DNA of 20,875 nt from a virus: IMG/VR virus record IMGVR_UViG_3300021963_010348, positions 1 to 20,875 of that record; one strand, 5' to 3'. A program made the translations under genes and the position numbers. Under the pieces are notes generated by a model. It was not told the DNA's origin. It searched no databases and was given only the letters and a program-made list of their open reading frames with translations. Positions 1 to 20,875 of the stretch are shown here, piece after piece (positions within the stretch are counted from its first letter, which is position 1; each line of letters starts with the position of its first letter).

Positions 1-975
1 CTCTTCGTTGTCGTCGCTATACACCGCCAGATAATTTCCTTGATTGCACCACATCCCAACTGTGTCTGAAGACTTGTAGTCTTGGTCTCCGTTGCCGGTT
101 TGAATCATCATGATGGTGTGGTTTGGTGAGAAATAAACAACTCTTTTTGGTCCATCTTTAGGCCCAAAAAAGAAAGTCTGATTTTCGACATTTGGATTTG
201 GTTCTTGGTTGAACATGTCAAGCCAAGTTAAAGCTTTGGGGTTTTTGTCACGGCTAATCCAATGTACATGATTGCGAAATCCTCCATAAATGCTTAAATT
301 GCAAAGTTCGGCTTCATGAGTAACGAATTTGACGAGAGTTGGATAAACTTTTGCTATTCTCAGAGCGTGCGTCATGCTGTGATCGCCATAGCCCTCTGCA
401 AATTCTTTTCGCATATCAAGATATTTTTGAGCTTGATCGCAGGATTTTAGTCGCTGTACTGCTGCGTTGCTTGTAATTGATATTTCGTGTTCATGAGGAG
501 GAGCAACATGAAATTGTAAATTAGGATGAGTTTTATACCAATGTCCATACCCCAACATGGTCAAAAGAGTTTGATCTACAGGCTGCACATCATAGTTTAG
601 TTCGCTAATTAAATGATATTCTCTTTCGTGATCAAAATCACGAACCAGAGTATTGTTTAAACCGCTGATGTCTGTGATACTGTCCTCATCTACTCTTACA
701 TACCATCGGGCACGATCTGGTTGAATGTGTTCTGAATAATACAGGTAAATTTTTTGAGCAACATGTATGTATTGAGAAATAACAATTTCGACATCGACAT
801 TATCAGGCCAACCAGATTCTACTTTGCTGGCTTCATTGCCCTTTGACAACATCAAATATACTTTGATTTTTAGATCACCTAGGTTTTGAAAACCATATTT
901 TTTGAAGTCATATGCCCTAGTGAGCAGCTTTTTATTGTTGGTTTCAATCGGAACGATGAATTCAAAATCGTACAT
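1..975 (-). CDS. Glycosyltransferase-like protein, incomplete at the window edge
   Basis: The reading frame runs open for 325 codons from ATG at 975 to base 1, so the C-terminus lies outside the window. The N-terminal half alternates hydrophobic strands and helices and reaches WYVRVDEDS near residue 91-99, which resembles the DxD-type metal/nucleotide-sugar site of Fringe-like or other GT-A glycosyltransferases. A later stretch with HEHEISITSNAAV and GYGDHSMTHAL could be the acceptor-side segment, but this is a weak resemblance. Only one base separates its start from the stop of the upstream minus gene, so the two are probably co-transcribed and translationally coupled. No signal peptide or membrane segment is visible. 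The function is inferred from a short motif; the existence of the gene is secure. Confidence 0.6.
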   Translation of the reverse strand, partial: MYDFEFIVPIETNNKKLLTRAYDFKKYGFQNLGDLKIKVYLMLSKGNEASKVESGWPDNVDVEIVISQYIHVAQKIYLYYSEHIQPDRARWYVRVDEDSITDISGLNNTLVRDFDHEREYHLISELNYDVQPVDQTLLTMLGYGHWYKTHPNLQFHVAPPHEHEISITSNAAVQRLKSCDQAQKYLDMRKEFAEGYGDHSMTHALRIAKVYPTLVKFVTHEAELCNLSIYGGFRNHVHWISRDKNPKALTWLDMFNQEPNPNVENQTFFFGPKDGPKRVVYFSPNHTIMMIQTGNGDQDYKSSDTVGMWCNQGNYLAVYSDDNEE

Positions 976-976
976 T

Positions 977-1432
977 TTATGCCACCTTGTAATTGCCTGC
1001 GCCCACCTTAACTATGTTTAAGCCCTGTTCTTGCAGTCTGCTTTTGACCTTTTTAAGATGATTGCAGAGTGCTGCGTCACTTAACCCCAAGTCCTTGTAC
1101 TTTTGTTTGAGTATCTTTAAGGAAACATTTTTTCTTTTGATGAATTGTTCGGTAATAAATTTTTGTATTTTTTTTGCAGCGGTCAGCGTTTCTCTTCTTT
1201 TGTTGACATTTATTTTTGTTTCAATTATTTCGTAAGTTGTTTTCGCAGTTTTTACTGTCGGATCACAAATCGCCAAAACCAGATTTTCCAAATCATAAAG
1301 TTCGCCACCAGACATTTGGACAATTTTCATGCTGGCATTGAAGCTTTTGCAGAATTCAAGCAACTGTGGCATATTTTTTTCTTGCGTGAAGAATTTTCTT
1401 TTGTCTTTTAATTCGATCAAAAGGCACTTCAT
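977..1432 (-). CDS. Small basic protein with C-terminal winged-helix-like region
   Basis: A 151-residue protein. The start was chosen at 1432 (MKCLLIELKD) because AAGGAG sits at 1444-1439, a proper distance upstream; a longer frame back to 1477 has no such site. The N-terminal half looks like a small alpha/beta fold. The C-terminal half (from about residue 85) is lysine-rich and helical, with KNVSLKILKQKYKDLGLSDAALCNHLKKV followed in part by a short strand pair ending in GAGNYKV, the pattern of a helix-turn-helix with a wing. It may bind nucleic acid and could be a regulator. It lies immediately upstream of the glycosyltransferase-like gene and is divergent from the amidoligase. I do not recognise a named family. 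Confidence 0.7.
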   Translation of the reverse strand: MKCLLIELKDKRKFFTQEKNMPQLLEFCKSFNASMKIVQMSGGELYDLENLVLAICDPTVKTAKTTYEIIETKINVNKRRETLTAAKKIQKFITEQFIKRKNVSLKILKQKYKDLGLSDAALCNHLKKVKSRLQEQGLNIVKVGAGNYKVA

Positions 1433-1456
1433 TTGGGTTCTCCTTAATACAAAATA

Positions 1457-1462
1457 ATTATA
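1457..1462 (-). promoter_or_regulatory. Possible -10 box for the minus-strand operon
   Basis: On the minus strand CCTATAAT is read across 1464-1457, about 25 bases before the ATG at 1432. The matching -35 is poor: TAGCAA at 17 bases spacing agrees with TTGACA at three of six positions. The other side of this divergent gap has the same CCTATAAT sequence. The support is modest. Confidence 0.3.
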
Positions 1463-1479
1463 GGTAAGTTTTTGCATAA

Positions 1480-1508
1480 TTGCTACTTAGAAGCGTAAAT
1501 CCTATAAT
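1480..1508 (+). promoter_or_regulatory. Sigma70-like promoter for the amidoligase gene
   Basis: TTGCTA at 1480-1485, a 17-base spacer and a perfect TATAAT at 1503-1508. Transcription would start at about 1514-1516, at the edge of the GGAGGA ribosome site (1515-1520), so the leader would be nearly absent unless a start site further upstream is used. The same -35 and spacing recur before thyX. Confidence 0.45.
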
Positions 1509-1524
1509 GAGTTCGGAGGATATC

Positions 1525-2547
1525 ATGGTTTCTGCAAAGGAAAATCTGAACATAGAAAACCTTCGCAGATTTGGCGCAGAAATAGAAATCAATGCGTTTG
1601 ATTTGAGAAATAGGCCAATTGGACATCAGGAAGGAAGATTGCCCGAAGGCACTCATTATGTCGCTAATTTAGTCAAAAAAACTGTAAAGAAACCAGTCAG
1701 AATTCACAAATGGGCTTATGACCATAATAATCCGACTTGGATCATCAAACCCGACAGCAGTTGTGGCATAGAAATTTGCACGCCTGTGATGAAGGGCTGG
1801 CTGGGCCTTATGGAAACATGCCGTGTTGTCGAAGCACTTGGGTCTGACAGCCGTGTTCAAGTCGATGACAGATGTTCATTCCATGTGCATGTTGATATTG
1901 GCGATCTGAATGACCAACAGCTTGCAACCGTTCTTACTTGGTGGACCAAGTGCGAGGCGGTTTTTATGGATTCTGTCCCTATGATCAGGAAACGGAATCA
2001 GTATTGTCAGCTTTTGGGACAGTCTGAAATATTTGGACATGTTGAAGACGGATTTTTGGCAAATGATGCCCTGATACGCAAATTGGGATTGTGCAAATAC
2101 TACACGATAAACACATACCATTATTACAACAACAAACGAAAAACTATTGAATTCAGAATCATGGACAGCGAATGTTGCCTTGATTCTTGGTTGTGTAAGA
2201 ATTGGATCAGACTAGTTTTGCATTTTATTGAGCGTGCGCTTCAGATGGGTATGCCTCTGGAATATCAAAGCGGTAATCCTTGGACGGGTTACTGTTGGCT
2301 TGATCCCATAGATGTATTTACATTTTTGGGGTTTGACGAGCAGCACGACTTGTCTCCCGGTTTGCGACAGGTTTGTGGGTGGTTTTTGGAAAGACTAACA
2401 GTAAACTCTAGGCTCACCTATGTTCAGGGCATTATGGGGTATAAATCACGATTGCCAGCCCAGAAAGAAATTGATATATTGTTTGATAGATTCAGCGATA
2501 TTGAAGACAATTACGGAGAAGTATTTGACAAAAAATTCAGTATATAA
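1525..2547 (+). CDS. Amidoligase (Amidoligase_2, PF12224 type)
   Basis: A 340-residue protein. The start was set at 1525 because GGAGGA at 1515-1520 is four bases upstream; the in-frame ATG at 1507 lies inside the TATAAT box and the TTG at 1480 has no ribosome site. The sequence carries the family pattern in order: FGAEIEINAFD near the N-terminus, W..KPDSSCGIEICTPVMKG in the first third, DDRCSFHVHVDIGDL with the paired histidines, and KTIEFRIMDS later. The family has a glutamine-synthetase/ATP-grasp-like fold and is predicted to form amide or peptide bonds from carboxylate and amine using ATP; family members are linked to peptide tagging or modification of cell-wall or proteins. The usual gamma-glutamyl cyclotransferase partner is not seen nearby. 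The substrate is unknown. It may be co-transcribed with the gene that follows 18 bases downstream. Confidence 0.85.
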   Translation: MVSAKENLNIENLRRFGAEIEINAFDLRNRPIGHQEGRLPEGTHYVANLVKKTVKKPVRIHKWAYDHNNPTWIIKPDSSCGIEICTPVMKGWLGLMETCRVVEALGSDSRVQVDDRCSFHVHVDIGDLNDQQLATVLTWWTKCEAVFMDSVPMIRKRNQYCQLLGQSEIFGHVEDGFLANDALIRKLGLCKYYTINTYHYYNNKRKTIEFRIMDSECCLDSWLCKNWIRLVLHFIERALQMGMPLEYQSGNPWTGYCWLDPIDVFTFLGFDEQHDLSPGLRQVCGWFLERLTVNSRLTYVQGIMGYKSRLPAQKEIDILFDRFSDIEDNYGEVFDKKFSI

Positions 2548-2565
2548 ATTTCAAAAAGGAAAAAC

Positions 2566-3024
2566 ATGATCAAGGTGGCAAAATTGTCTGAAATCGTCCA
2601 GATCATGAAAGGCATAGGAGAAGTTCTTGTGCCTTTTAACTTTCCAAAAGCGCCCCTGTCTTGGGAGGATGAATTGGGTATTTTCAAAGCAAGGGATGCG
2701 GAAATCGATGGATATCCTCTTTTCTTGCACTATCAAAAGTCAGACTATGATGATTACTTCATTGAGACACTTCAGATTCATAATCGTAGAGGTCCTTTTT
2801 TGCCATTTAATTTGATATGCAAGCTTGGAACTAAGTTTCTAGGGACAGTAAACTTGTCCCTCATTGAAATATTTAGAGAGAATAGAAAGGTTTATGTCTG
2901 GTCTAAATGTACAGACAAAAATGGTCGTTCTATTCCAGTTCCAAATCAAAGCGATTCTGAAACTTGTGAATATGAAGGTCTTCACTACATGTATGTTCAA
3001 CCAAACAATGTCGATTTTCTTTAG
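2566..3024 (+). CDS. Conserved-looking protein of unknown function
   Basis: A 152-residue soluble protein starting at ATG 2566 with an AAAAAGGA ribosome site at about 2553-2560. It has a compact, aromatic-rich core: YPLFLHYQKSDYDDYFIETL, then PFLPFNLICKLGTKFLG, then NRKVYVWSKC. This mixed alpha/beta protein has no membrane segment, signal or cysteine cluster. The pattern of strong aromatic and charged positions suggests a maintained fold, but I cannot name a family. It follows the amidoligase by 18 bases on the same strand and could be its partner or simply a neighbour. TATAAATT at 2543-2550, overlapping the amidoligase stop, resembles a T4 late box but lies very close to the start. Confidence 0.8.
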   Translation: MIKVAKLSEIVQIMKGIGEVLVPFNFPKAPLSWEDELGIFKARDAEIDGYPLFLHYQKSDYDDYFIETLQIHNRRGPFLPFNLICKLGTKFLGTVNLSLIEIFRENRKVYVWSKCTDKNGRSIPVPNQSDSETCEYEGLHYMYVQPNNVDFL

Positions 3025-3105
3025 AATTTAAACAAGATTTACCCTCATGTATTATTTTATTTCACGCATCATTATGATGTGTGAAAATGATATATAAAAT
3101 TACAA

Positions 3106-3128
3106 CGCCGTTTGCGGCGCTTTCCTTT
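3106..3128 (+). terminator. Short GC hairpin with T-rich tail in the intergenic gap
   Basis: CGCCG (3106-3110), TTTG loop, CGGCG (3115-3119), then CTTTCCTTTT. It could end the 2566-3024 transcript. It could instead be a leader hairpin of the gene starting at 3144, because TATAAAAT at 3093-3100 lies just before it. The T-tract is interrupted, so termination may be weak. Confidence 0.4.
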
Positions 3129-3143
3129 TACGAGGGTAAAAAC

Positions 3144-3443
3144 ATGAAGAAAAACAAGATACAAGCCATGCTGGTCGAGCATCTGATGAAGTATGGCTCA
3201 ATTGAAATTTTACTGCCCGACAATGTTAAAGTTGAAATTGGTACGACTCAAGAAAATCAAAATGGCAGACTCGTCAAGAAGGAAAATTATTGCTGGGTTA
3301 TCACATCAAGAGAAAATAGATCGACAAGTTTGGACGCTTACAACATGGGCCTGAAGTTTTCTGATGACGAGAGCATGATTGTTTTGGAAGATAAATTTGT
3401 TGATTCAAACGGAGATCATGTGCGGAGACTTGATGTTGTTTAA
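3144..3443 (+). CDS. Small protein of unknown function
   Basis: A 99-residue protein. The start at 3144 (MKKNKIQAMLVEHL) follows GAGGG at 3132-3136; the longer frame from GTG at 3081 would translate through the GC hairpin at 3106-3119 and has no ribosome site. It begins with a short amphipathic helix, then strands such as SIEILLPDNVKVEIG, YCWVITSRE and SMIVLEDKFV, which suggests a small mostly-beta fold. No catalytic motif is visible. Its TAA shares the palindromic TTAA (3440-3443) with the stop of the minus-strand frame that ends there. The function is unknown. Confidence 0.7.
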   Translation: MKKNKIQAMLVEHLMKYGSIEILLPDNVKVEIGTTQENQNGRLVKKENYCWVITSRENRSTSLDAYNMGLKFSDDESMIVLEDKFVDSNGDHVRRLDVV

Positions 3444-4166: not shown

Positions 4167-6209
4167 ATGCCGCCTATTGTTCACCTGAATGACCAAGAAG
4201 TTTGTGTTGCCACTCTGGATTATCCGCACGCAAAATGGAAATTTGACAAGTTTAATCCTGTCCAAAGCAGGATGATGGATGTTTTTAACAAGGATGTCAA
4301 CGGCTTGATTGCTGCAAGCACTTCAGCGGGTAAAACCGTAGTTGCAGAAATGTTTTTAGCTCAAGAAATCCGTGAGCGTGGCGGTAAAGGTATGTTTCTG
4401 GCACCTTTGCGAGCTCTTGCCCGTGAAAAAATCAATGATTGGAAAAGCCCCGGATATCACTTTTCAGATTTAAACATCAGTATTTGTACTGGTGATTATA
4501 GATTAACCAAAGAGCGGTCACAGGAACTCAATGATGCTAATTTGATCATCATGACTAGCGAAATGCTTAGTCACCGGAGTCGTGGTTACAAATCGGAGCA
4601 AAATCAATTTTTGAAGGATGTAGGTACTCTTGTGCTGGATGAAAGCCATCTGCTCACCGTACCCGGTCGTGGCGATCACCTCGAAGTTGGGTTGATGAAA
4701 TTTACTCAAATCAACCCCAAGGCAAGACTGGTTTTGCTGTCGGCAACTATGCCTAATGTTGAGGAAATTGCTGAATGGATTTCCTACATGCTAACTGGCA
4801 AGGAAACTTTTGTATTGAGGTCAAAATACCGTCCCGTACCTTTGACAACACATTACGAACCCTACAGCGATGATATGCGCCGTTATGATTTAATAGAAAA
4901 AGAAAAAATAAACAAAGCTATGGATATTGTTGAGTGGTACAAGAATGATAAGTTTTTGGTGTTTGCGCACACCAAAAGAACTGGCGAGATGATGAAGAAG
5001 GAGCTTCAAGGTGCTGGCATTGAAGCGGAATTTCACAATGCTGATTTGGAAACATCGCAGCGTGCAAAGCTTGAAGATCGTTTTAAAAACGATCCAAAAT
5101 TCAGGGTTATTGTTGCAACTTCAGGACTTGCTTGGGGCTTAAACCTGCCTGCACGAAGAGTGATCATTCTTGGTGTTCACAGAGGCGTTGAGGAAGTCGA
5201 GTCTCACGATATTTTGCAGATGGTTGGTCGCTCTGGAAGATACGGCATTGATCCTATGGGTGATGCCTACATTCTTGTGCCCGAAAGCAAAATGCGACAA
5301 TACACTCAAAAATACAGCAGTCCCAGAAGGATCGAAAGTCAACTTCTGGAAAAGACGGGAACGCATCATAAATCTTTGGCGTTTCATCTGGTAAGCGAAA
5401 TATTTTACGGCGGCATTTCCACAACTGAGGATTTTCACAATTGGTACAAGCGTTCTTTGGCGCATTACCAAAACAAACAACTCAGCGATACTGTGGTTGA
5501 TGATACTTTGGAATTGCTTCGTAAATGCGGTGCTATTGTAGAAGAGAATGGCAAATGGACTGCTAGACCTATTGGCAAAATTTCAAGCATGTTTTACATT
5601 AGTCCCTTTGATGTATCGGACCTTTATTTCAACTTTAAAAATCTTTTTGATTCTAATCGTGAAGAAGACGATTACATGTTGTCTATGGCTTTGGCCAACC
5701 TTGATGGTCAAAGATTGAATATCGTTTCCAAGGCTGAGAAAGATGAAATTAGTCTGTATGCCAACAAAGTAAGGGTGATGTTGGCGGGTAAGTTTCTGAC
5801 AGATGGCTGCATTAAGGCTGGTTATTGTTACTATAACCTTCTTACTGGCAATAACGCTCAAGCTCTTGCAGCTTTTCAGCGGAATTTGCAGCAGGACTAC
5901 AATCGTATTTCACAGGTATTGCAGGCTATGGACACCATGACAGGTCAATGGGATCGATCAAGTTGGCTTAAGACTCTTGAGTCCAGAATTGCCAGCGGCG
6001 TTCCAGCACATTTAATTGACCTTTGCAAAATACCGAGTATTGGCAAAGTCAGAGCCACGAAACTTTATGATGCTGGATTCAAGACTTCAAAAGATTTGGC
6101 TAAATTAGATGCCGCTAAACTTTCTAAGCTTGTGAATGTAAAGTTGGAGTTGGCTCAAGAAATGATTCAATCTGCAAAGGGCGAATCAATTGATTTTTTT
6201 GAAGCGTGA
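4167..6209 (+). CDS. Hel308/Ski2-like superfamily 2 DNA helicase
   Basis: A 680-residue protein, close to the length of archaeal Hel308 (about 700). Motifs are intact: Q-like PVQSRMM near 31-37, motif I STSAGKT at 51-57, APLRALARE (Ia), DESH at 158-161 (Walker B), SAT at 192-194, FAHTKRT (IV), ATSGLAWGLNLP (V) and QMVGRSGR at 351-358 (VI). The region after about 380 should hold the winged-helix and ratchet domains, and a helix-hairpin-helix (IPSIGKVRATKLYDAG) starts at about 622. Known family members unwind DNA 3'-5' at stalled or branched forks using ATP. In a phage it would serve replication or recombination-dependent replication. The start is fixed by TGGAG six bases upstream. The last 24 bases overlap the convergent minus gene. 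Confidence 0.92.
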   Translation: MPPIVHLNDQEVCVATLDYPHAKWKFDKFNPVQSRMMDVFNKDVNGLIAASTSAGKTVVAEMFLAQEIRERGGKGMFLAPLRALAREKINDWKSPGYHFSDLNISICTGDYRLTKERSQELNDANLIIMTSEMLSHRSRGYKSEQNQFLKDVGTLVLDESHLLTVPGRGDHLEVGLMKFTQINPKARLVLLSATMPNVEEIAEWISYMLTGKETFVLRSKYRPVPLTTHYEPYSDDMRRYDLIEKEKINKAMDIVEWYKNDKFLVFAHTKRTGEMMKKELQGAGIEAEFHNADLETSQRAKLEDRFKNDPKFRVIVATSGLAWGLNLPARRVIILGVHRGVEEVESHDILQMVGRSGRYGIDPMGDAYILVPESKMRQYTQKYSSPRRIESQLLEKTGTHHKSLAFHLVSEIFYGGISTTEDFHNWYKRSLAHYQNKQLSDTVVDDTLELLRKCGAIVEENGKWTARPIGKISSMFYISPFDVSDLYFNFKNLFDSNREEDDYMLSMALANLDGQRLNIVSKAEKDEISLYANKVRVMLAGKFLTDGCIKAGYCYYNLLTGNNAQALAAFQRNLQQDYNRISQVLQAMDTMTGQWDRSSWLKTLESRIASGVPAHLIDLCKIPSIGKVRATKLYDAGFKTSKDLAKLDAAKLSKLVNVKLELAQEMIQSAKGESIDFFEA

Positions 6210-6764
6210 TGCTATAGACCTGATTAGTTTAGCTTTTTTTCTTTGCGCTATCAGAGATGGAGGAGGAGCGTCTGGACAAAGCGTTCCATTTACCCAGCTA
6301 TCAATTACTGTAGTTGAAATTGGACAACAAAAATTTACTCCAGATGTTGAGCCGTTGACTGTTATTGTATCACAATTATTGTAGGCTTTTGTCACAGTTC
6401 CATCAGCGTAGGTTCCATCTAAACCTATTCTCCAAGCTCCTGTATAAATTCCACAAGTGTATTGGTAAGTGCTGTTTGTAAGTGATACATTTCCAGCGCC
6501 TCCCTGCAATTTAAATCGTGTTAATCCTATGCTGCCTGTAGTGATTGGTACAAGACAACAAGCATCTGTGCTTATTGTGTTGTAGATGACTATGCTGTCT
6601 CCACCGGGACAGCCGGGGTTTGTATTTTGAGGAATAGTGGTTTTCCATGTCAAAGATGTATAACAAGGACACAGAATTACGCTGCTACAAATACAGGATG
6701 GACAGGGACATCCACACCATGAGCCGTAAGTTACTGGTCCACAATAAGGAGGACTACAAGCCAT
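6186..6764 (-). CDS. Cysteine-rich, Gly/Thr/Asn-rich protein, possibly surface or virion
   Basis: A 192-residue protein with 17 cysteines, nine of them in the first 34 residues (positions 3, 8, 17, 19, 21, 24, 26, 32, 34) among prolines and glycines. The middle (about 50-160) is rich in T, S, N, G and aromatic residues and looks like repeated beta strands, as in fibre or surface-decoration proteins. The tail ends in a basic helix (QRKKAKLIRSIASRFKKIN). There is no standard signal peptide. The cysteines could bind metal or form disulfides in the finished particle. It starts five bases after the stop of the upstream minus gene, so it is probably the second gene of a two-gene operon. Its 3' end overlaps the helicase gene by 24 bases. 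No family is recognised. Confidence 0.75.
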   Translation of the reverse strand: MACSPPYCGPVTYGSWCGCPCPSCICSSVILCPCYTSLTWKTTIPQNTNPGCPGGDSIVIYNTISTDACCLVPITTGSIGLTRFKLQGGAGNVSLTNSTYQYTCGIYTGAWRIGLDGTYADGTVTKAYNNCDTITVNGSTSGVNFCCPISTTVIDSWVNGTLCPDAPPPSLIAQRKKAKLIRSIASRFKKIN

Positions 6765-9193: not shown

Positions 9194-9307
9194 TCCATTT
9201 TTTCCTGAAATAATCGTACCCAGAGAAGGGTGTGCTCCCTCAAGCCATCTGATTCCAATTTGTTGTTCCTGATTGCAGAATGTAATTTGTTCGTCAAGTA
9301 TTTTTAT
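9155..9307 (-). other. Short open frame without a normal start codon
   Basis: After the nuclease stop (9306-9304) a +1-shifted frame stays open for 50 codons and reads IKILDEQITF...GIRWLEGAHPSLG to a stop at 9155. The only start-like codon at the junction is ATA at 9307-9305, directly after AAGGATCAACGGCA, which looks like a ribosome site. It could be a lost or rare start, a frameshifted extension of the nuclease, or chance. Otherwise 9194-9303 is a non-coding gap with no terminator visible. Confidence 0.25.
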
Positions 9308-9972
9308 TGCCGTTGATCCTTCAATTGTTTTCTGAGCTTGTTCAGCCCCACCTCCGTTAACACCATAAATCCGAATCCTCTCGCTTGGCAATATTGATCG
9401 CAGGCTGTCCATTTTGCTGAATTCCTTGGTAAATGAGTTTGATCGGAAGGTTTGACTTCCCATATTTCTACTCGTCCATCGCTGAACAAGACTTTTAAAT
9501 CTGGGTTGTACTCATGGAGATTCCCTTCAAAAGTATATTGTACCGAGAAGGGTTCGACCTCATATCCAATGATTTCAGGCATTCCTTCTAGGCATTCATA
9601 CACATCACATTCCATTCCAGAACGGTAGTGCATTTCCTTGCCTCCGTTTTTGGTAGATATCAGATATCCTTCCCTAAATTTTGGTTTTCGCTGCTTAAGT
9701 TTTCCCTTGGCACCGACATCTTTCCAAATAATTGCTTTCATTTGCCCCATCTTGGGAATGTTTGTTTCATATGGGTGTTTGGCCTTGATGTGAGTTCTTA
9801 CACAACGAACAGGACAGCCACATCTAGGCAAGGGACACAACACAAATTCACGACCTTCTTCGTGCGCTTCAAGGATGTGAGACTTGTATGAGTCAAACTC
9901 GGTGTGTGCCATACCACACACAAAGCATGTGTATTTTCGCAAGCCATTGTCTTTTTCAAATGGTAGAGTCAT
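9304..9972 (-). CDS. Zinc-finger plus TnsA-like PD-(D/E)XK endonuclease
   Basis: A 222-residue protein with two N-terminal C2H2-type fingers: C16-x2-C19-x12-H32-x4-H37 and C46-x4-C51-x9-H61-x4-H66. The nuclease domain follows: YRSGMECDVYECLE with E121, HEYNPDLKVLF with D158, and EVKP with E172 and K174, the E...D...ExK arrangement of TnsA. The segment NSAKWTACDQYCQARGFGF and LTEVGL also match that family. T4 gp4 (head-completion protein) has the same YRS..E...PDF...EVK pattern, so the role could be head completion, or a finger-targeted endonuclease acting on host or rival DNA. It starts by ATGA overlap with the upstream minus gene, and a weak ribosome site suggests coupling. Confidence 0.8.
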   Translation of the reverse strand: MTLPFEKDNGLRKYTCFVCGMAHTEFDSYKSHILEAHEEGREFVLCPLPRCGCPVRCVRTHIKAKHPYETNIPKMGQMKAIIWKDVGAKGKLKQRKPKFREGYLISTKNGGKEMHYRSGMECDVYECLEGMPEIIGYEVEPFSVQYTFEGNLHEYNPDLKVLFSDGRVEIWEVKPSDQTHLPRNSAKWTACDQYCQARGFGFMVLTEVGLNKLRKQLKDQRQ

Positions 9973-13445: not shown

Positions 13446-14843
13446 ATGCAACTCTATTCTGATTTTTTAAAAGCTGATGCAAGTGGTCCTACTGCAAAAA
13501 TTGGCATCGTTGGCGATGCTATGGTTGATGAATTCATGGATGTTGAGATCAAGAAGATTTCACCAGAATTTCCTATAATTGTTGTGCAGTCCGAGGATGA
13601 AAACTATCAATATTTGCCCGGTGGTGCAGCTAACGCAGCTTTTCAGTTCAAGCACTTTAATGTCGATTCAACTTTGTTTGCATTTGTTGATGATGAGGCC
13701 AAGCAGGTCTTTACACAGAGTGGCTTAAAATCTGATTGTTTTGTTGAGATAGGCAATAAGATACCCAGAAAAAGACGCTTATACAGTCAGGGAATTCCTA
13801 TCAATCGCATAGATTTTGAGTCTAGCAATTATGGATTTAGCGAAGACATTCTCCAGTTGCGTGCACAAGATATTATCCATAAATTGCTTAAAACAAACTT
13901 GGATGCCTTGATTTTGTCAGATTATCACAAGGGGTTGTTTGCACAATTTGACAACAAAGTATTGAAAAATTTCAAACGCACTATCATTGACCCAAAATGC
14001 GGCGATATCAGTAGATGGTGCGGTTGCACAGTATTCAAACCAAACCAAGAAGAAGCCACTAGATTAAGTGGAAAATCCAACATTTACGACGCAGGCCGAT
14101 ATTTTCTTGATCAACTTTGTTGCCAAGCGGTTGTCATAACGATGGCAGCAAACGGAGTTGTTGTTTTTAAAAAGAACTGTGATCCTGTGGAAATCAAACC
14201 TCAGAAAAAACTGCCTCCAGCAGAATCTGTCGTTGGCGCTGGAGATTGTTTTGCTGCTTTTTATGCCATGTCTTTGGCAAGAGGGTTTGATTTTGATCAG
14301 GCCGCTGACATTTCGTTTCATGCTGGCAGTCTTTATGTTCAGAACAAACACAACAAACCCCTGACTCCGCAGGAATTTCGTGCCTCTTTTGACCCTTGTG
14401 GTTCTAAATTTATCGATAATCCGCAGAAATTTTTTGCTGGAAAAAATTACAAACTTGCCTTTACCAATGGATGTTTTGATTTTGGACTAACAGCCGCTCA
14501 TGTTGACTGCATAAATTTCGCCAAAACTTGCGGCGATAAGTTGGTCGTTGCCCTTAATAGCGATGCAAGTGTTTCAAGATTAAAGGGCGAAGGTAGGCCC
14601 ATTTTGCCTTTTGCAGATCGTGTCAAAATAATTTCAAGTATGCAAGCAGTTGATTATGTGGTGGGTTTTGACGAGGACACACCTCTCAACATCGTTGAAA
14701 AGGTTGTTCCTGATGTAATCATAAAGGGTGGCGATTACAATAAAGATACTGTTATTGGTGGACATATTGCAGAGGTGATTATATTTGATTGGGTTGAGAG
14801 CTTGTCAACTACTCAAAAAATTGAAAAGTATAAATCACTTTGA
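13446..14843 (+). CDS. HldE/RfaE-like bifunctional sugar kinase and nucleotidyltransferase
   Basis: A 465-residue protein, close to the 477 of E. coli HldE. Start 13446 (MQLYSDFLKAD) follows AAGGCAGG and is where the homology begins; an in-frame ATG at 13380 adds 22 unlikely residues. Domain 1 (about 1-320) is a PfkB/ribokinase-type sugar kinase: GDAMVDEF, LPGGAANAAF and GAGD at 264-267 with the catalytic D267. Domain 2 (about 335-465) is a cytidylyltransferase-like fold: TNGCFD at 340-345, LNSDASVSRLKG, GRPI, and ending VESLSTTQKIEK. In HldE these make heptose-1,7-bisphosphate and ADP-heptose. The nucleotide-binding HxGH element reads LTAAH (348-352), with an extra residue, T for the first His and A for Gly, so domain 2 may have altered specificity or activity. 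Its end overlaps the next minus gene by 9 bases. Confidence 0.88.
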   Translation: MQLYSDFLKADASGPTAKIGIVGDAMVDEFMDVEIKKISPEFPIIVVQSEDENYQYLPGGAANAAFQFKHFNVDSTLFAFVDDEAKQVFTQSGLKSDCFVEIGNKIPRKRRLYSQGIPINRIDFESSNYGFSEDILQLRAQDIIHKLLKTNLDALILSDYHKGLFAQFDNKVLKNFKRTIIDPKCGDISRWCGCTVFKPNQEEATRLSGKSNIYDAGRYFLDQLCCQAVVITMAANGVVVFKKNCDPVEIKPQKKLPPAESVVGAGDCFAAFYAMSLARGFDFDQAADISFHAGSLYVQNKHNKPLTPQEFRASFDPCGSKFIDNPQKFFAGKNYKLAFTNGCFDFGLTAAHVDCINFAKTCGDKLVVALNSDASVSRLKGEGRPILPFADRVKIISSMQAVDYVVGFDEDTPLNIVEKVVPDVIIKGGDYNKDTVIGGHIAEVIIFDWVESLSTTQKIEKYKSL

Positions 14844-15161
14844 TTTGCATTTTTTGCACTCGCATCCAGCGCAACAATTGTGATCTGGGCAGCAGACGCA
14901 CGGCGGGTTGCAAATCTGAAAACATTTGCAGCAGGTTTTTTTAGAGCCACAACCCTTGCAGCATTTGCAATTGTCGCAACACGCTCCAAATTCTGCGCAT
15001 CTACAACTTTCACCACAACACTCGCAACCACAATCGCATGGTCGGCAAGACCGATCAATTGCGCAACAGGGTTTGGCACACGCTTGATCGGGCGTTAGCA
15101 CAAGCATTGTCGCAACTCCAAAAATAAACCCGAGTATTAAACCAATAAATAAAAGCGTCAT
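14835..15161 (-). CDS. Membrane-anchored protein with an extreme cysteine content
   Basis: A 108-residue protein with a GGAG ribosome site seven bases before ATG 15161. Residues 1-23 (MTLLFIGLILGFIFGVATMLVL) form one hydrophobic segment, a membrane anchor or uncleaved signal. From residue 28 on there are about 29 cysteines in 80 residues, in pairs and CxC or CxxC units (PCDCGCECCGESCRC, CCDNCKCCKGCG), with lysines and a basic end KCKSK. The density matches metallothionein-like metal-binding proteins, or a heavily disulfide-linked outer-face protein. It could bind Zn, Cu or Cd at the membrane of the infected cell. It converges with the HldE-like gene and is divergent from the HNH gene. No family is recognised. 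Confidence 0.75.
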   Translation of the reverse strand: MTLLFIGLILGFIFGVATMLVLTPDQACAKPCCAIDRSCRPCDCGCECCGESCRCAEFGACCDNCKCCKGCGSKKTCCKCFQICNPPCVCCPDHNCCAGCECKKCKSK

Positions 15162-15497: not shown

Positions 15498-15680
15498 ATG
15501 TTTATGAGAACTTTTTCTGAGTTTATGGAATCGAAAGCTACTGGTAAATTTGGCATGGGCACGGGACAATCGCCTACCAAACTAATGGCCGTGGGAGCTT
15601 CAAAGCCTTCTAAACCCACACATCTAAAGTATACTGGTTTAGCTGTGACGAAGACATATCCTGTGGCAAAATTCAAGTGA
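15498..15680 (+). CDS. Small protein with a T4-like capsid-targeting N-terminus
   Basis: A 60-residue protein. Two close starts exist, 15498 (MFMRTF) and 15504 (MRTF); neither has a strong ribosome site. MRTFSEFMESKA resembles the T4 internal-protein leader MKTYQEFIAE, with FME as a possible cleavage site for a prohead protease. After it come glycine, proline, threonine and lysine residues (GKFGMGTGQSPTKLMAVG), a basic and flexible mature part. It follows the HNH gene by 7 bases. I infer an internal head protein; that rests on the N-terminal motif and basic composition. Confidence 0.6.
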   Translation: MFMRTFSEFMESKATGKFGMGTGQSPTKLMAVGASKPSKPTHLKYTGLAVTKTYPVAKFK

Positions 15681-15695
15681 ATACTCACTTAGTTC

Positions 15696-16295
15696 ATGGC
15701 AGTATCAAGTCTTGGCGATAATTTGAGCATAATTATATCTTGTAGTCATGCGCCACATCATGACTGGATGTCTTTTCTTTGCTGGTATTCGATTAGTAAG
15801 AATTTGCCTGAAGCAACCGTGGTGATTGGCTGCGCCCGTGGCGGCGACATGAATTTTGATATTTTTAATTGGCCACGGCGTTGCGATGTTCAGTTGCTCT
15901 TTCACAGCGCATTCGCTGATGTTGTGAAAGCTGTTCTTGAAAATAAAAAAAGCAAAGCAAAAACGCCTGCTCTTATATTGGAACCACAGACTGTATGTCT
16001 TCGTGATTTTGACGAGGCGGGATTTAACACTTCTGTATTTGAAAGCCACCAGTTTTTATGGGCTAAAAACGACCCTTTGCTGCAATGTCGATGTGCGGAG
16101 GAAAATCCTTCCGTTTTCACCGATTACGCTGATGGATGGGGCAAGTTTGTTACTTCTGCTTGGATAAATAAGGCAAGCACACCACTCGTTACTGGAGGCG
16201 GCTATGTGAAGTCGTCAATGTCAGTAAATGAGATGAGGATAGGGAAGTTATGGGAGAGTGCTGCTTTCATGTATCAAAACATGGCAAGGGGATAA
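15696..16295 (+). CDS. Protein of unknown function, possible glycosyltransferase-like fold
   Basis: A 199-residue protein. It begins with a strand-helix pattern (NLSIIISCSHAPHHDWMSFLCWYS) and continues ATVVIGCARGG, which resembles the first part of GT-A glycosyltransferases; there is no clear DxD. Later parts have a conserved-looking FTDYADGWGKFV and WESAAFMYQN. It carries several cysteines but no ordered metal site. No ribosome site is seen before ATG 15696, and coupling to the gene ending 16 bases earlier is likely. Function is uncertain; the fold idea is weak. Confidence 0.7.
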   Translation: MAVSSLGDNLSIIISCSHAPHHDWMSFLCWYSISKNLPEATVVIGCARGGDMNFDIFNWPRRCDVQLLFHSAFADVVKAVLENKKSKAKTPALILEPQTVCLRDFDEAGFNTSVFESHQFLWAKNDPLLQCRCAEENPSVFTDYADGWGKFVTSAWINKASTPLVTGGGYVKSSMSVNEMRIGKLWESAAFMYQNMARG

Positions 16296-16296
16296 A

Positions 16297-16575
16297 ATGA
16301 GAAGATTTAACTACGATGATAATGACGAGTTTCGTGATGATATCGACAAGTTTTTCAATGAAGATGAGTCAGATACATACGAAGAATTTGTCAGAGAAGA
16401 AATAGCCCTGCAAGAAGCTGAACTTGATCTTTCCTATCGTGAGGTAAACATCAAGATCATGCGCACGGCGGTAAGAATTTGCGAGAAGTCATTCTGGTGG
16501 TCATTCTATTCCCAACCAACACGCATGAAAATGATCGTTGATACTTACAAAAAACTTAAAAACCTAGAGCTTTGA
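16297..16575 (+). CDS. Acidic helical protein of unknown function
   Basis: A 92-residue protein. Start 16297 (MRRFNYDDNDE) is set by AAGGGGAT, which lies in the end of the preceding gene; a frame back to 16258 overlaps that gene needlessly. The first half is very acidic (DDNDEFRDDIDKFFNEDESD), and the second is an amphipathic helix region with aromatic residues (SFWWSFYSQPTRMKM). It sits one base after the preceding stop and ends just before the FmdB-type gene, so it is part of the same transcript. No family is recognised. Confidence 0.75.
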   Translation: MRRFNYDDNDEFRDDIDKFFNEDESDTYEEFVREEIALQEAELDLSYREVNIKIMRTAVRICEKSFWWSFYSQPTRMKMIVDTYKKLKNLEL

Positions 16576-16583
16576 GGTGACTT

Positions 16584-16919
16584 GTGCCGTTCTATCAATT
16601 TGAATGTAAGAAATGTAAAAAAGAATATGAAGAACTGTGCTCATACGATGCCAGCGGGAAATATTCTGATGTGCGATGCCCGCATTGCAACAGCAAGACA
16701 AAAACCAAGTTGATGTCTGCGTGTAATTATAATTTCGCAAATCCTGAAGGTACTGACCGATGGAACAGCGAAAGTAGCGGTCATGATTACAGGTTCCACC
16801 ATAATCTTCCGAAGGTGTTGGCAGAACGACAAGCGGCTGAAGAAGCAGGTAAAAATCCCAGTCCTTATAACAACATCAACGACCTCGCCAATGAAAGTGC
16901 GTGGGGCGAAGTCAAATAA
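16584..16919 (+). CDS. FmdB-type zinc-ribbon protein
   Basis: A 111-residue protein starting at GTG 16584 behind GAGGTGA. The N-terminus MPFYQFECKKCKKEYEELCS and CPHCNSKTKTKLMS carry the two CxxC knuckles and aromatic start that define the FmdB/CxxC_CXXC_SSSS regulatory-domain family. The C-terminal half is polar and helical (LAERQAAEEAGKNPSPYNN). Members are small zinc proteins of uncertain role, some regulatory; this is typical in phages. It is the last gene before the terminator at 16945. Confidence 0.88.
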   Translation: MPFYQFECKKCKKEYEELCSYDASGKYSDVRCPHCNSKTKTKLMSACNYNFANPEGTDRWNSESSGHDYRFHHNLPKVLAERQAAEEAGKNPSPYNNINDLANESAWGEVK

Positions 16920-16944
16920 AAAAAGTTAAAATTATTTTTTTTGA

Positions 16945-16972
16945 CCCCAACTACGAAGTTGGGGTTTTTTTT
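16945..16972 (+). terminator. Strong rho-independent terminator
   Basis: CCCCAACT (16945-16952), ACGA loop, AGTTGGGG (16957-16964), then eight T (16965-16972). It closes the preceding gene run and isolates the prkA module. Confidence 0.92.
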
Positions 16973-16988
16973 ATTTTATGCGCTAACT

Positions 16989-17019
16989 TATAATTGTTGT
17001 TGACATAGGACAACTATGT
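16989..17019 (+). promoter_or_regulatory. Possible -10 box and inverted repeat before prkA
   Basis: TATAAT lies at 16989-16994 with no clear -35 (it would fall in the terminator T-run). TTGACA occurs at 17000-17005 but has only AAAAAT at 17 bases. ACATAG (17003-17008) and CTATGT (17014-17019) are inverted arms around GACAA and could be an operator or leader hairpin. Evidence for any single promoter is weak. Confidence 0.35.
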
Positions 17020-17056
17020 GTAAAAAATAACTGGCAGCACCGAACTTGGAGGAATT

Positions 17057-19135
17057 ATGGCCAGCGTTCTGCAAAAATACATCGGCAAGTTTGACCGCAA
17101 CCGTTTTCGTGAGTTGCATAGCGAAATTACATTCGCTGAATATCTTGACCTTTGCTATCAAAATCCAAAACTCATTCGCAACTCTTGGCAAACGATCTAT
17201 GACATGATCATGGAGAAGGGTTGCAACACCGTTGAGGAATACAGGAAGACCTATACCAACTACAAGTTCTTTGATGACCCAGATCATCCCATCATTGGCT
17301 TGACCCCTATGAAGGATGCTCTGGTCAAATTCATCAAGGGTGCTGCTGGAGGTTATGGGACCGAACGAAGAATCCTCCTGTTGCACGGTCCTGTGGGAAG
17401 CAGCAAGTCTACCTTGTGCAGACTTATTAAGCGAAGCATGGAGAAGTACAGCCATACCGAAGCTGGTGCATGGTATAGCTTCAAGTGGGTGAATCTGCCT
17501 ACTGGTTCAGATGGCATTTATACTGACACCGAATGCAACTGTCCCATGCATGAGCAGCCTCTGAAGCTGCTTCCTGTTGAGCTTCGCCAAGAAATTATTG
17601 CTGACCTCAACAAAATCCACGAGGAGCAAACCGCCGAAGATCAAAGGAGTGATATTTACACCCTGAAGTGCAATGATGAACTTGATCCTCTGTGCAAAAA
17701 GTTCATGAATGCGCTTCTCAAGAAATACGATGGTGATCTTGAAAAGGTGCTAGAGAATCACATCAGAGTGATTCGCAAGGTGTACAGCGAGGCAGATCGT
17801 TGCGGTATTGCAACATTCCAGCCCAAGGATGAAAAGAATCAAGATAGCACGGAGTTAACTGGCGATATCAATTTCCGTCAAATCGGCAACTTTGGTTCCG
17901 ATAGCGATCCCAGAGCGTTCAGCTTCGATGGCGAATTTTGTGTTGGTAACCGTGGGCTTATTGAATTTATTGAAGCCCTTAAGCTCGATACGGCCTTCCT
18001 GTACGATCTGCTTGGTGCAAGCCAAGAACAGAGTATTAAGCCTAAAAAGTTTTCACAGGTCAGCATCGATGAGGCCATTCTGGCGCATACCAATGATCCA
18101 GAATTTCAGAAGCTCAAGAGCAACCAATACATGGAAGCTTTCCGTGACCGTACCACCAAGATTGATGTTCCTTACACCTTGAGGTGGTCCGAGGAACTCA
18201 AGATTCTTGAGAAGGATTATGGTCCCGGCAAGGTGCGTCAACACATTGCGCCTCACACTCTTGAAATCGCTGCTCTCTGGAGCATCCTTACCCGTCTGCA
18301 AGACGACAAGGATGGTAAGATTTCGCTTGTCGAAAAGGCCGAATTGTATGATGGTAAGCTTTTGCCCGGTTGGACTGAGGATTCCGTAAAGGAACTCAAA
18401 GACAAGTATCCAGACGAGGGCATGGCGGGCGGTGTCTCTGTCCGTTATCTGCAAGACAAGATATCCAATTGTCTTGCTAACAACCATGACTATGTAAACA
18501 TGTTCATGGTGCTCAACGAGCTTCGTGATGGTCTTGACAACTGCTCCTTGCTTACCAACAAGGAGCAGGTCGGCAGATACATTACTTGTATCGATTTGTC
18601 CATCAAGAAACTCACCGAAATTCTCAAAGCGGAGGTTCAAAAGGCATTGGTAGGAGATAAGGAGGCTATCAAGCGTCTGTGTTTGAACTACATTGACAAT
18701 GTGATGGCTTATATCAACAAGAGTAAGATCAAAGACCCAATCACAGGTCAAGATCGCAAACCTGATGAAAGGCTGATGCGACAGATCGAGGAAAAGATTC
18801 AGATTCCCGACACGGGATGCGATGATTTTCGTCGTCAAATCGCAGCCTTCATTGGGCATCTCGCTCATGAAGGAAAGTCTTTCACTTGGGACAGCAATCC
18901 CAAGCTTCGCAAGGCTCTTGAGGCCAAGCTGTTTGAAGATGTCAAGGACACCATTAAATTGAGCGCCTTGAGCTCCAGCGGTGCAACCGTTGTTGACAAG
19001 GATATTCAAGAGAAGATTGATGCTGTCAAAACCAGACTGATTAAAGATTTTGGCTATAACGATAGGTCTGCCACAGATGTGCTCGACTTTGTTGGCGGCA
19101 TATTTTCTCGTGGCGATCTGGCTGAGGACGAGTAA
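17057..19135 (+). CDS. prkA: PrkA-family AAA+ protein (YeaG-like)
   Basis: A 692-residue protein, slightly longer than E. coli YeaG (about 644). Start 17057 follows TTGGAGGA. The N-terminal half is the PrkA AAA domain: GLTPMKDALVKFIKGAAGG, Walker A GPVGSSKST at 111-119, then FDGEFCVGNRGLIEFIEALK, a characteristic PrkA block. The C-terminal part (after about 400) carries the PrkA C-terminal domain, with SVRYLQDKISNCLAN. The family was first named a serine kinase; it has also been described as an ATP-dependent protease or AAA+ motor in Bacillus sporulation control, and in enterobacteria YeaG acts with YeaH and YcgB in starvation stress. Here it heads prkA, small ORF, DUF444, spoVR. Codon use is richer in G and C than in neighbouring genes. 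Confidence 0.93.
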   Translation: MASVLQKYIGKFDRNRFRELHSEITFAEYLDLCYQNPKLIRNSWQTIYDMIMEKGCNTVEEYRKTYTNYKFFDDPDHPIIGLTPMKDALVKFIKGAAGGYGTERRILLLHGPVGSSKSTLCRLIKRSMEKYSHTEAGAWYSFKWVNLPTGSDGIYTDTECNCPMHEQPLKLLPVELRQEIIADLNKIHEEQTAEDQRSDIYTLKCNDELDPLCKKFMNALLKKYDGDLEKVLENHIRVIRKVYSEADRCGIATFQPKDEKNQDSTELTGDINFRQIGNFGSDSDPRAFSFDGEFCVGNRGLIEFIEALKLDTAFLYDLLGASQEQSIKPKKFSQVSIDEAILAHTNDPEFQKLKSNQYMEAFRDRTTKIDVPYTLRWSEELKILEKDYGPGKVRQHIAPHTLEIAALWSILTRLQDDKDGKISLVEKAELYDGKLLPGWTEDSVKELKDKYPDEGMAGGVSVRYLQDKISNCLANNHDYVNMFMVLNELRDGLDNCSLLTNKEQVGRYITCIDLSIKKLTEILKAEVQKALVGDKEAIKRLCLNYIDNVMAYINKSKIKDPITGQDRKPDERLMRQIEEKIQIPDTGCDDFRRQIAAFIGHLAHEGKSFTWDSNPKLRKALEAKLFEDVKDTIKLSALSSSGATVVDKDIQEKIDAVKTRLIKDFGYNDRSATDVLDFVGGIFSRGDLAEDE

Positions 19136-19146
19136 TAAGCTGCGAT

Positions 19147-19175
19147 TGGAGGGGGATTAGTCCCCCTCCATTTTT
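19147..19175 (+). terminator. Terminator-like hairpin between prkA and the 72-residue gene
   Basis: TGGAGGGGGA (19147-19156), TTAG loop, TCCCCCTCCA (19161-19170), then five T. The last six bases of the right arm can also pair with TGGAGG at 19175-19180, which includes the next ribosome site, so two exclusive structures exist. Partial termination would lower expression of the downstream genes relative to prkA. Confidence 0.75.
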
Positions 19176-19189
19176 GGAGGAAAATTATT

Positions 19190-19408
19190 ATGCAAAACCC
19201 TTGGTTAAGTTCTGCAAAAAATCGTCAATTGTTTAAAGAAATTGATGAGATTGCTATGGATGTTTGGGCTGATGATGGCACTTTAAGCGACTTTTTTGCA
19301 TCGCTGACTGACGAGCAGACTGATTTTATTTTTAGTATGAAAATCAAAGATTTTGCCGCAGACCCAGATGACATGAAGATGGGTTTTGAACTTTCTGACC
19401 CAGATTGA
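19190..19408 (+). CDS. Small acidic protein inside the prkA module
   Basis: A 72-residue protein with GGAGG at 19176-19180 nine bases before ATG 19190. It is strongly acidic (FKEIDEIAMDVWADDG, then AADPDDMKMG, ending FELSDPD) and mostly helical, with a hydrophobic face (LSDFFASLTDEQTDFIFSM). There is no metal motif or signal. It lies between prkA and the DUF444 gene, where enterobacterial operons have no extra gene as far as I know. It may be an adaptor or regulator of PrkA or YeaH, inferred from position only. Its ribosome site can be masked by the hairpin just upstream. Confidence 0.75.
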   Translation: MQNPWLSSAKNRQLFKEIDEIAMDVWADDGTLSDFFASLTDEQTDFIFSMKIKDFAADPDDMKMGFELSDPD

Positions 19409-19409
19409 G

Positions 19410-19437
19410 TATAAATATTTTGATGCTTAAGCACCAA
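19410..19437 (+). promoter_or_regulatory. T4-type late promoter box and palindrome before yeaH
   Basis: TATAAATA at 19410-19417 is an exact match to the T4 late (gp55) consensus. TGCTTAAGCA at 19424-19433 is a perfect palindrome, extended to TTG...CAA (19420-19437) with one mismatched pair. Transcription from the box would start within or beside the palindrome, so an operator is possible. Whether this phage uses a gp55-like factor is unknown. Confidence 0.4.
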
Positions 19438-19450
19438 ATAGAGGTGAAAA

Positions 19451-20656
19451 ATGCCGAGGCGTGTTGAGGAAGATCATAAAGACTTCCGTGATGTTGTTTC
19501 TGGTCGTATTCGCAAAGCTCTCAAAAAGTTTATCAAGAGTGGTCAGATTGTCAGAAACCGTGGCAAGAACGGCAAGATATCAATCAGCATTCCCAAGATT
19601 GATATTCCTCATATCGTCTATGGCGATAGCGGTGAAGGTGCCGGTAGAGGTCCCGGCAAGGAAGGTGATGTTATCGGCAAAGACCCCAAAGGTGGTCAAG
19701 GAAATGGCGCTGGACAGGGTGAATCCGAAGGCATCAATATCAACTTAGACCTTGAAGATGTTCTTAAGTTTATGCAGGATGAACTCCAACTGCCCAATCT
19801 TAAAAAGAAACCAAACGAAATTTACGATCAGGTAAAAATCAAATATAACAAGATTTCCTTGATTGGCCCTGAGTCACTTAGACACAATCGTCGCACCTTG
19901 ATGCAAACCATGAAGCGTCAAGCTGCTGAAGGAACGCTCGGAAATCTTCGTAGCGTTCCCGGTTGCAAAGACCCTGTCAGGGTTTTGCAGCCAATCAACG
20001 AAGATAAGCGATACCGTCAGTTTAGCGAAATTAAATTGCCCTCCAGCAACGCTCTTGTCGTATTTGCAAGAGATGGTTCTGGCTCGATGGATGAAACCAA
20101 ATGTGAAATTGTCAGCGATATGACATGGTGGATCGATACTTGGATTCGTCGTTTTTATGATCGTGTTGATCGTCTATATGTCTGGCACGACAGCACGGCT
20201 ATGGAAGTAGATGAAGAAAAATTTTATAAGTATCGGTATGGTGGTGGCACAACTTGTTCTTCTGCTTTAAAGTTTATCACCAAGCAGTTTGAAAACCGTT
20301 ACCCACCCGACAAATGGAACATCTATGTTTTCTATTTTACGGATGGTGAGAATTGGGGCGATGACAACGAGATATTCATCAATACATTGGCAGAAGAATT
20401 CAAGCCAAGCGTTGTGAACTTTACGGGCATCACACAAATATTAGCATCGACCTATAACGATTCAGTCAAGAGTCATGTGGACGAAGCCATCAAGAATGGC
20501 AAATTAGACAAAGAATATGTTAGGACTGTTGCTATTGGTGGTGGCAGCGGAGGCGCATGGAATATGCCTAGTTTGTCAGAACAAAACCGAAACGAACAAA
20601 TAATTGATGCTATCCAAGTTCTACTAGGCAATCCTAACAAAATTTCTCGTGATTGA
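19451..20656 (+). CDS. yeaH: YeaH-like VWA protein (DUF444)
   Basis: A 401-residue protein (E. coli YeaH is about 427) starting at 19451 behind GAGGTG. The N-terminus MPRRVEEDHKDFRDVVSGRI is typical of DUF444, followed by a glycine-rich linker (GEGAGRGPGKEGDVIGKDPK) and the PDS-like core LIGPESLRHNRRTL. A von Willebrand A-type domain starts at about 200, with the MIDAS DGSGSM at 208-213 and later TDGENWG. YeaH partners PrkA and SpoVR in bacterial stress responses; an AAA+ and VWA pair recalls MoxR/VWA chaperone systems. It is the third gene of the module, followed 11 bases on by spoVR. Confidence 0.93.
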   Translation: MPRRVEEDHKDFRDVVSGRIRKALKKFIKSGQIVRNRGKNGKISISIPKIDIPHIVYGDSGEGAGRGPGKEGDVIGKDPKGGQGNGAGQGESEGININLDLEDVLKFMQDELQLPNLKKKPNEIYDQVKIKYNKISLIGPESLRHNRRTLMQTMKRQAAEGTLGNLRSVPGCKDPVRVLQPINEDKRYRQFSEIKLPSSNALVVFARDGSGSMDETKCEIVSDMTWWIDTWIRRFYDRVDRLYVWHDSTAMEVDEEKFYKYRYGGGTTCSSALKFITKQFENRYPPDKWNIYVFYFTDGENWGDDNEIFINTLAEEFKPSVVNFTGITQILASTYNDSVKSHVDEAIKNGKLDKEYVRTVAIGGGSGGAWNMPSLSEQNRNEQIIDAIQVLLGNPNKISRD

Positions 20657-20667
20657 GAGGACTCGAT

Positions 20668-20875
20668 ATGTCCAGCAAATTTTTTCATGGTTCAAGCGTT
20701 CTGATTGGCGACAATACCGTTCCCGGTGTCGGTCTTTCCAAAGAACTTAAGGAGCATATACCAAGGATTCTTCAAGCCTGTAGGGATTGGGGTTTGGATT
20801 TTTATCCGACAGTTGTTCAAATGCTTACCTATGACGAGATTAGTGAGATAGCCGCTTATGGGGGCTTTCCAGTAA
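20668..20875 (+). CDS. spoVR: SpoVR family protein, 5' part only
   Basis: 69 codons to the window edge from ATG 20668, with GAGAGGA at 20655-20661 as ribosome site. The pattern LSKELKEHIPRILQACRDWG then LDFYPTVVQMLTYDEISEIA and AAYGGFPV is the hallmark of the SpoVR/YcgB N-terminus (GLDFYPT.FE...EIAAYGGFP). Known members are about 450-510 residues, so most of the gene lies beyond the window. In B. subtilis SpoVR affects spore cortex formation; in enterobacteria YcgB acts with YeaG and YeaH. It completes the three-gene module. Confidence 0.92.
   Translation, partial: MSSKFFHGSSVLIGDNTVPGVGLSKELKEHIPRILQACRDWGLDFYPTVVQMLTYDEISEIAAYGGFPV

Follow-up and report, generated by a model that had tools for sequence, protein, structure and literature searches.

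The gene trio encoding PrkA, a DUF444/YeaH-type VWA protein and SpoVR was found to be a complete, selected and vertically inherited module of a huge tailed-phage lineage whose portals are of the T4 type, its completeness being established from relatives of the DNA analyzed here. The latter (hereafter the window) is the whole 20,875-base stretch of an IMG/VR record. The trio is common in bacteria, where it is tied to starvation and sporulation, and we know of no agreed biochemical function for it. Its status as a core module of the phage appeared almost certain. Our best overall explanation, held with evenly balanced confidence, is that this phage module would be a NorQ/NorD-like machine acting in the infected cell.

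The features of the trio region described next lie on the plus strand of the window. The prkA gene (17057-19135) encodes a protein of 692 aa with an AAA+ ATPase domain and a PrkA C-terminal domain (Pfam PF08298 and PF06798), the VWA gene (19451-20656) encodes a DUF444/YeaH-type protein of 401 aa (Pfam PF04285, 1.6e-62), and the start of SpoVR (20668-20875; Pfam PF04293) is cut by the contig end. This last reading frame (20653-20874, with a likely ATG at 20668) contains only about the first 70 residues and scored 24.7 bits against a cut-off of 27; thus, the complete trio is visible only in relatives. The original observation of PrkA and VWA genes and a SpoVR start in the window was confirmed. 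The strong terminator that it had placed to the left of prkA was likewise located, at 16943-16966, where a 10-pair stem precedes a run of Ts. Between this terminator and prkA are a ribosome-binding site and promoter-like sequences: a TATAAT box (16989-16994) located 68 bases 5' of the prkA start, and a second promoter-like site, TTGACA-17-AAAAAT (17000-17028), recovered by a consensus scan with 10 of 12 matches, such consensus sites being overall no more frequent than in shuffles. Another strong intrinsic terminator (19147-19170; a 10-pair stem with 7 G-C pairs, then a T tail) follows prkA, suggesting that prkA may be its own transcription unit in this phage. Terminator-like sites in the region 15600-20875 numbered 13, against 4.6 expected from shuffles. 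A 72-aa ORF between prkA and the VWA gene (19190-19408), like the terminator after prkA not part of the original observation, had matches in many window-type loci. Upstream of prkA lie a 105-aa gene (16258-16575), which had no family match and whose own family was present in 35 of the 39 window-type loci compared, and a gene for an FmdB-type zinc-ribbon protein of 111 aa (16584-16919; NCBIfam TIGR02605, 31.7 bits, cut-off 31.3), present in 32 of the 39. Elsewhere, the minus strand of the window encodes two cysteine-rich proteins without a Pfam match (14835-15161 and 6186-6764) and a third protein (9304-9972), in which a TnsA-like endonuclease domain was identified alongside a match to a head-closure PHROG.

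Genomic comparison placed the window among viral sequences. It is collinear with a viral contig of 172,833 bp (IMGVR_UViG_3300027754_005796), in which nearly all window genes from position 1480 to the end were matched in order, with identities of 91% for PrkA, 95% for the VWA protein and 91% for the SpoVR start. SpoVR is complete in this ~173-kb contig, and the same gene block, with a complete SpoVR of 537 aa, occurs in the huge phage LR756511.1 (595 kb); full-length SpoVRs in relatives include those of L002 (537 aa) and L014 (531 aa). We saw neither a truncation of SpoVR beyond the window edge nor an origin from a bacterial chromosome or plasmid, as SpoVR was full length in the nearest relatives and these relatives were on viral contigs, in part with virion genes. 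The phage context that had been predicted was supported by longer relatives carrying structural genes: tail sheath, T4-type portal or terminase genes occurred on contigs of 225-595 kb, including LR756511.1 (T4 portal and terminase), a 319,857-bp carrier contig (portal, terminase and sheath) and a 225-kb contig whose PrkA is 88% identical to that of the window (tail sheath). Most other long carrier contigs, many of which are fragments, gave no match for portal, terminase or sheath, and the 20.9-kb window lacks virion hallmark genes, as does the collinear 173-kb contig with respect to the three families sought in it. Conserved together with the trio in one block are an HldE-like gene, the zinc-ribbon gene, ThyX and a DnaE polymerase. 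When contigs of 299-527 kb were reached via the neighboring HldE-like gene, PrkA was present and a T4 portal was found in most of them; an alignment scan with this gene yielded 79 loci, 19 of which had no PrkA within the stretch examined, most of these stretches being incomplete. Downstream of the trio, the gene for the DnaE-type polymerase was split into two ORFs with other genes between them in L063 (15368-21976), L074 (15978-21514), L081 (16288-20304) and L041 (14763-18705), always at the same point (approximately residue 433-435 of the L002 copy), and the L076 copy seems to contain an intein.

A search of viral genomes showed that the triplet was present in many viral contigs. The window PrkA, used as a query in IMG/VR, retrieved 142 relatives, and an alignment scan retrieved 377. 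The bacterial gene order PrkA-VWA-SpoVR, originally noted for the window, was also present in all 76 window-type viral loci that were long enough among the best 80 loci examined; the other 4 had no SpoVR (2 of them also no VWA gene) and all end at a contig edge. A YeaG-type query gave 138 viral matches, mostly complete trios, of which a few loci may be host DNA, and 6 of the 15 long YeaG-type contigs checked had a T4 portal. A third type of trio is carried by Thermus phages. In the PrkA tree, the window type formed one clade (support 100, stem 0.88) that adjoins or nests within bacterial copies from Planctomycetota, Myxococcota, Bdellovibrionota and Chloroflexota, and the Thermus phages formed one separate clade. 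At least two changes (starred branches) were needed to explain the YeaG-type viral label, a count of origins that is a lower bound because the bacterial YeaG-type sampling was thin. One window-type phage clade was also recovered in each of the VWA and SpoVR trees, so the phage copies form their own clades for all three proteins, as had been anticipated. The YeaG-type jumbo phages and the Thermus phages acquired the trio independently of the window type. Pairwise dN/dS was approximately 0.03-0.11 for PrkA, VWA and SpoVR, with synonymous sites often saturated, and the window-type trio is under strong purifying selection. The trio is a long-established, conserved part of the genome in several lineages of very large bacterial viruses. 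Most bacterial genomes of the class examined had two PrkA paralogues, the open frames encoding roughly 700 and 755 residues.

The window PrkA matched both Pfam AAA_PrkA (1.2e-79, 268.4 bits) and the PrkA C-terminal domain (3.3e-74, 250.2 bits), with cut-offs of 25. Its Walker A motif reads GPVGSSKST, and Walker A was intact in all 80 viral PrkAs. In a structure model of this protein (pLDDT 87), the AAA+ domain was close to NorQ, NorQ-NorD VWA complexes and CbbQ, with sigma-54 activators tying (Z 14.2 for NorQ; 14.4 for NtrX, and others); the Pfam scan gave PrkA families only and no MoxR-type AAA+ family. Solved structures are available for a close PrkA relative (PDB 9xip, 9xiq and 9xir, 30 chains), and the ATPase, kinase or protease activity of bacterial PrkA is disputed (PMC13001217). 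The VWA protein reached 212.4 bits for DUF444 (cut-off 27) and has the metal-site motif DGSGS (DxSxS). Loss of this site in L072, L077 and L086-L089 was considered and rejected, since these copies read DCSGS.

SpoVR was modeled on the full-length relative L014 (352.4 bits for the SpoVR domain; model pLDDT 83). The best structural matches of its N-terminal region include leukotriene A4 hydrolase, M32 carboxypeptidases, ACE and BepA, the first 18 matches having Z from 11.7 to 5.9, values that a helical model can reach by chance; matches beyond these mostly cover another part of the model. The top two, 3o0y and 3cmn, we take to be zincin-type, which their titles do not say. Foldseek of SpoVR against PDB gave no match at E 0.001, and a sequence-profile search for a solved SpoVR structure found none. 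Three residues were invariant (H123, H127 and E293, L014 numbering), corresponding to HxxxH and a downstream NEG motif. In the alignment rows inspected, the catalytic Glu of the zincin HExxH motif is missing; thus, SpoVR may not be an enzyme. The zincin-like nature of SpoVR, as predicted from the model, is a lead and not proof. Intein junctions were recognized by pattern in 16 viral SpoVR genes, at site a (YE[ML]V[VI]N^T) and site b (NEGWA^S): two inteins in L016, L019, L021, L027, L029, L035-L037 and L071, and one in L013, L017, L022, L033, L040, L057 and L090. Five bacterial SpoVRs (L095, L099, L103, L117 and L154) have one intein each, at the same NEGWA^S site as the phage genes. Intein and LAGLIDADG domains in the insertions were backed by both Pfam and NCBIfam, and the idea that SpoVR is broken in relatives was dismissed, the gaps being in-frame inteins. 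Inteins usually occupy essential active-site motifs, which supports NEGWAS as functionally critical. Our literature search found no paper covering both SpoVR and inteins.

The phage trio resembles the bacterial prkA/yeaG-yeaH (DUF444)-spoVR/ycgB operon in families, gene order, and intact Walker A and VWA metal site, whereas it differs in its phage-only clades, its fixed position in a block with zinc-ribbon, HldE-like and DnaE genes, the extra small ORF and internal terminator of the window set, and the inteins in many of its SpoVRs. The same PrkA, VWA and SpoVR families are found in the Thermus phages phiYS40, TMA, phiLo, MN1 and Lalka8, which differ from the window type in gene order (VWA-SpoVR-PrkA), clade and PrkA sequence (~30% identity), and jumbo phage RsoM2USA has PrkA and SpoVR of the same families (PMC8504454). 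The MoxR AAA+/VWA pairs (NorQ-NorD, CbbQ-CbbO) also combine an AAA+ with a VWA protein and have a similar predicted AAA+ fold, but PrkA constitutes a separate Pfam family, has a distinct C-terminal domain and is equally similar to sigma-54 activators. Another set resembling the trio is the AAA+, VWA and metallopeptidase set (MoxR-VWA-metallopeptidase) of other jumbo phages, for which a role in assembly or maturation was proposed (Iyer et al., 2021; PMC7824862); in contrast, SpoVR has no HExxH. What was already known comprises single-gene annotations in the Thermus phages and RsoM2USA and one PHROG labeled sporulation protein. In addition, spoVR has been listed among marine viral genes (PMC8940887), and the words sporulation and von Willebrand are absent from the main text of the huge-phage paper (PMC7162821). 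The open-access literature yielded no description of the three genes as a conserved cassette of phages, most subscription papers being outside this search.

The separate fixation of the trio in several huge-phage lineages under strong selection indicates that it is of use in the infected cell. An AAA+/VWA remodelling machine that includes SpoVR appeared reasonably probable. PrkA would form an ATP-driven ring, as in bacterial AAA+/VWA pairs such as NorQ/NorD, the VWA protein would dock the client through its metal site, and SpoVR would complete the machine, acting as a metal-dependent hydrolase or else being a metal-bound client or scaffold remodelled by the ring. Action on the host side rather than the virion side seemed about equally balanced with its opposite: the trio may be active in the infected cell ahead of virion assembly, driven by a host-type promoter 5' of prkA, and might remodel proteins in a way that keeps the host in a productive stress-like state. 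Several observations count against this reading: the tie between NorQ and sigma-54 activators for PrkA, the missing Glu of SpoVR, the terminator that separates the window prkA from its VWA gene, and the Thermus phage Lalka8, in which portal and minor head protein genes are followed by VWA, SpoVR, PrkA, hypothetical genes and TerL.

Upstream motifs provided clues to expression, with expectations taken from base shuffles and the loci being related to each other. TATAAT was found 5' of prkA in 16 of 35 loci (5.0 expected) and in 31 of 59 in a larger set (9.2 expected), and, of the eight conserved gene families compared in the block, prkA alone showed clear enrichment. A conserved -35 box was not clear 5' of prkA (at least 4 of 6 matches in 8 of 33 TATAAT sites, ~13% expected). 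ACTATAT, which we read as a candidate late promoter in these phages, was present upstream of 17 of 136 virion-region genes (L390-L403; 3.4 expected). ACTATA was not enriched upstream of the trio (PrkA 2/59, VWA 0/60, SpoVR 0/60). The T4 late-promoter motif TATAAATA showed no enrichment. Thus, the host-like TATAAT at prkA, together with a trio that shows no enrichment of ACTATAT, slightly favors a role in the infected cell over one in virion assembly, and the promoter-like motifs argue weakly against co-expression of the trio with virion genes.

The phage copies might instead control host dormancy, one of the roles originally proposed, by mimicking or replacing the host starvation module, and thereby keep the cell in stationary phase or sporulation or prevent it from entering them. 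This appeared unlikely, even though bacterial homologues are induced at growth arrest in R. etli (PMC3188799) and needed for sporulation in B. anthracis (PMC13001217), and host-like TATAAT boxes occur at prkA. No clear stress phenotype was seen when prkA was mutated in R. etli (PMC3188799). Moreover, the three largest YeaG-type carriers (634-642 kb) fit a size class predicted to infect Bacteroidetes (PMC7162821), and the single Bacteroides control genome had no PrkA C-terminal domain, suggesting that the host copy to be mimicked may be missing there.

On the other hand, PrkA and the VWA protein could be a phage chaperone pair, with SpoVR as a processing partner, that works on capsid or tail proteins. 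The Lalka8 gene order would fit such a role, as would the proposal for the other jumbo-phage set by Iyer et al. (2021; PMC7824862), who also refer to a MoxR-VWA system required for tail assembly in an archaeal virus. However, the trio is ~180 kb from the portal gene in LR756511.1, the window-type block is near DnaE, ThyX and HldE-like genes, other Thermus phages have no head genes beside the trio, and the virion-region motif ACTATAT is not enriched 5' of it; we regard virion assembly as quite unlikely. Finally, an origin as host contamination, or as genes picked up recently and of no use to the phage, is extremely improbable: the window lacks virion hallmark genes of its own and such cases do occur, as in the Enterobacter phage LAU1 record (MN688132.1, L010), which has yeaG-yeaH at its end (1-3308), probably host DNA flanking a prophage, but collinearity with a long viral contig, a phage-only PrkA clade on a long stem, purifying selection and the hallmark genes on relatives' contigs all oppose it, and contamination is ruled out by the collinearity, the trees and these hallmark genes.

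Returning to the remodelling machine in the infected cell, a bolder and still doubtful version is that phages repeatedly adopted PrkA-VWA-SpoVR as a self-contained machine that needs no host copy, in which SpoVR would be an unrecognised zincin-type protein with an intein-marked active site. From the zincin-like character predicted for SpoVR and the NEGWAS site marked by inteins, predictions follow that can be tested for partners, metal dependence and key residues. If this is true, phage systems would be the simplest place to learn the role of a widespread and unexplained bacterial trio.
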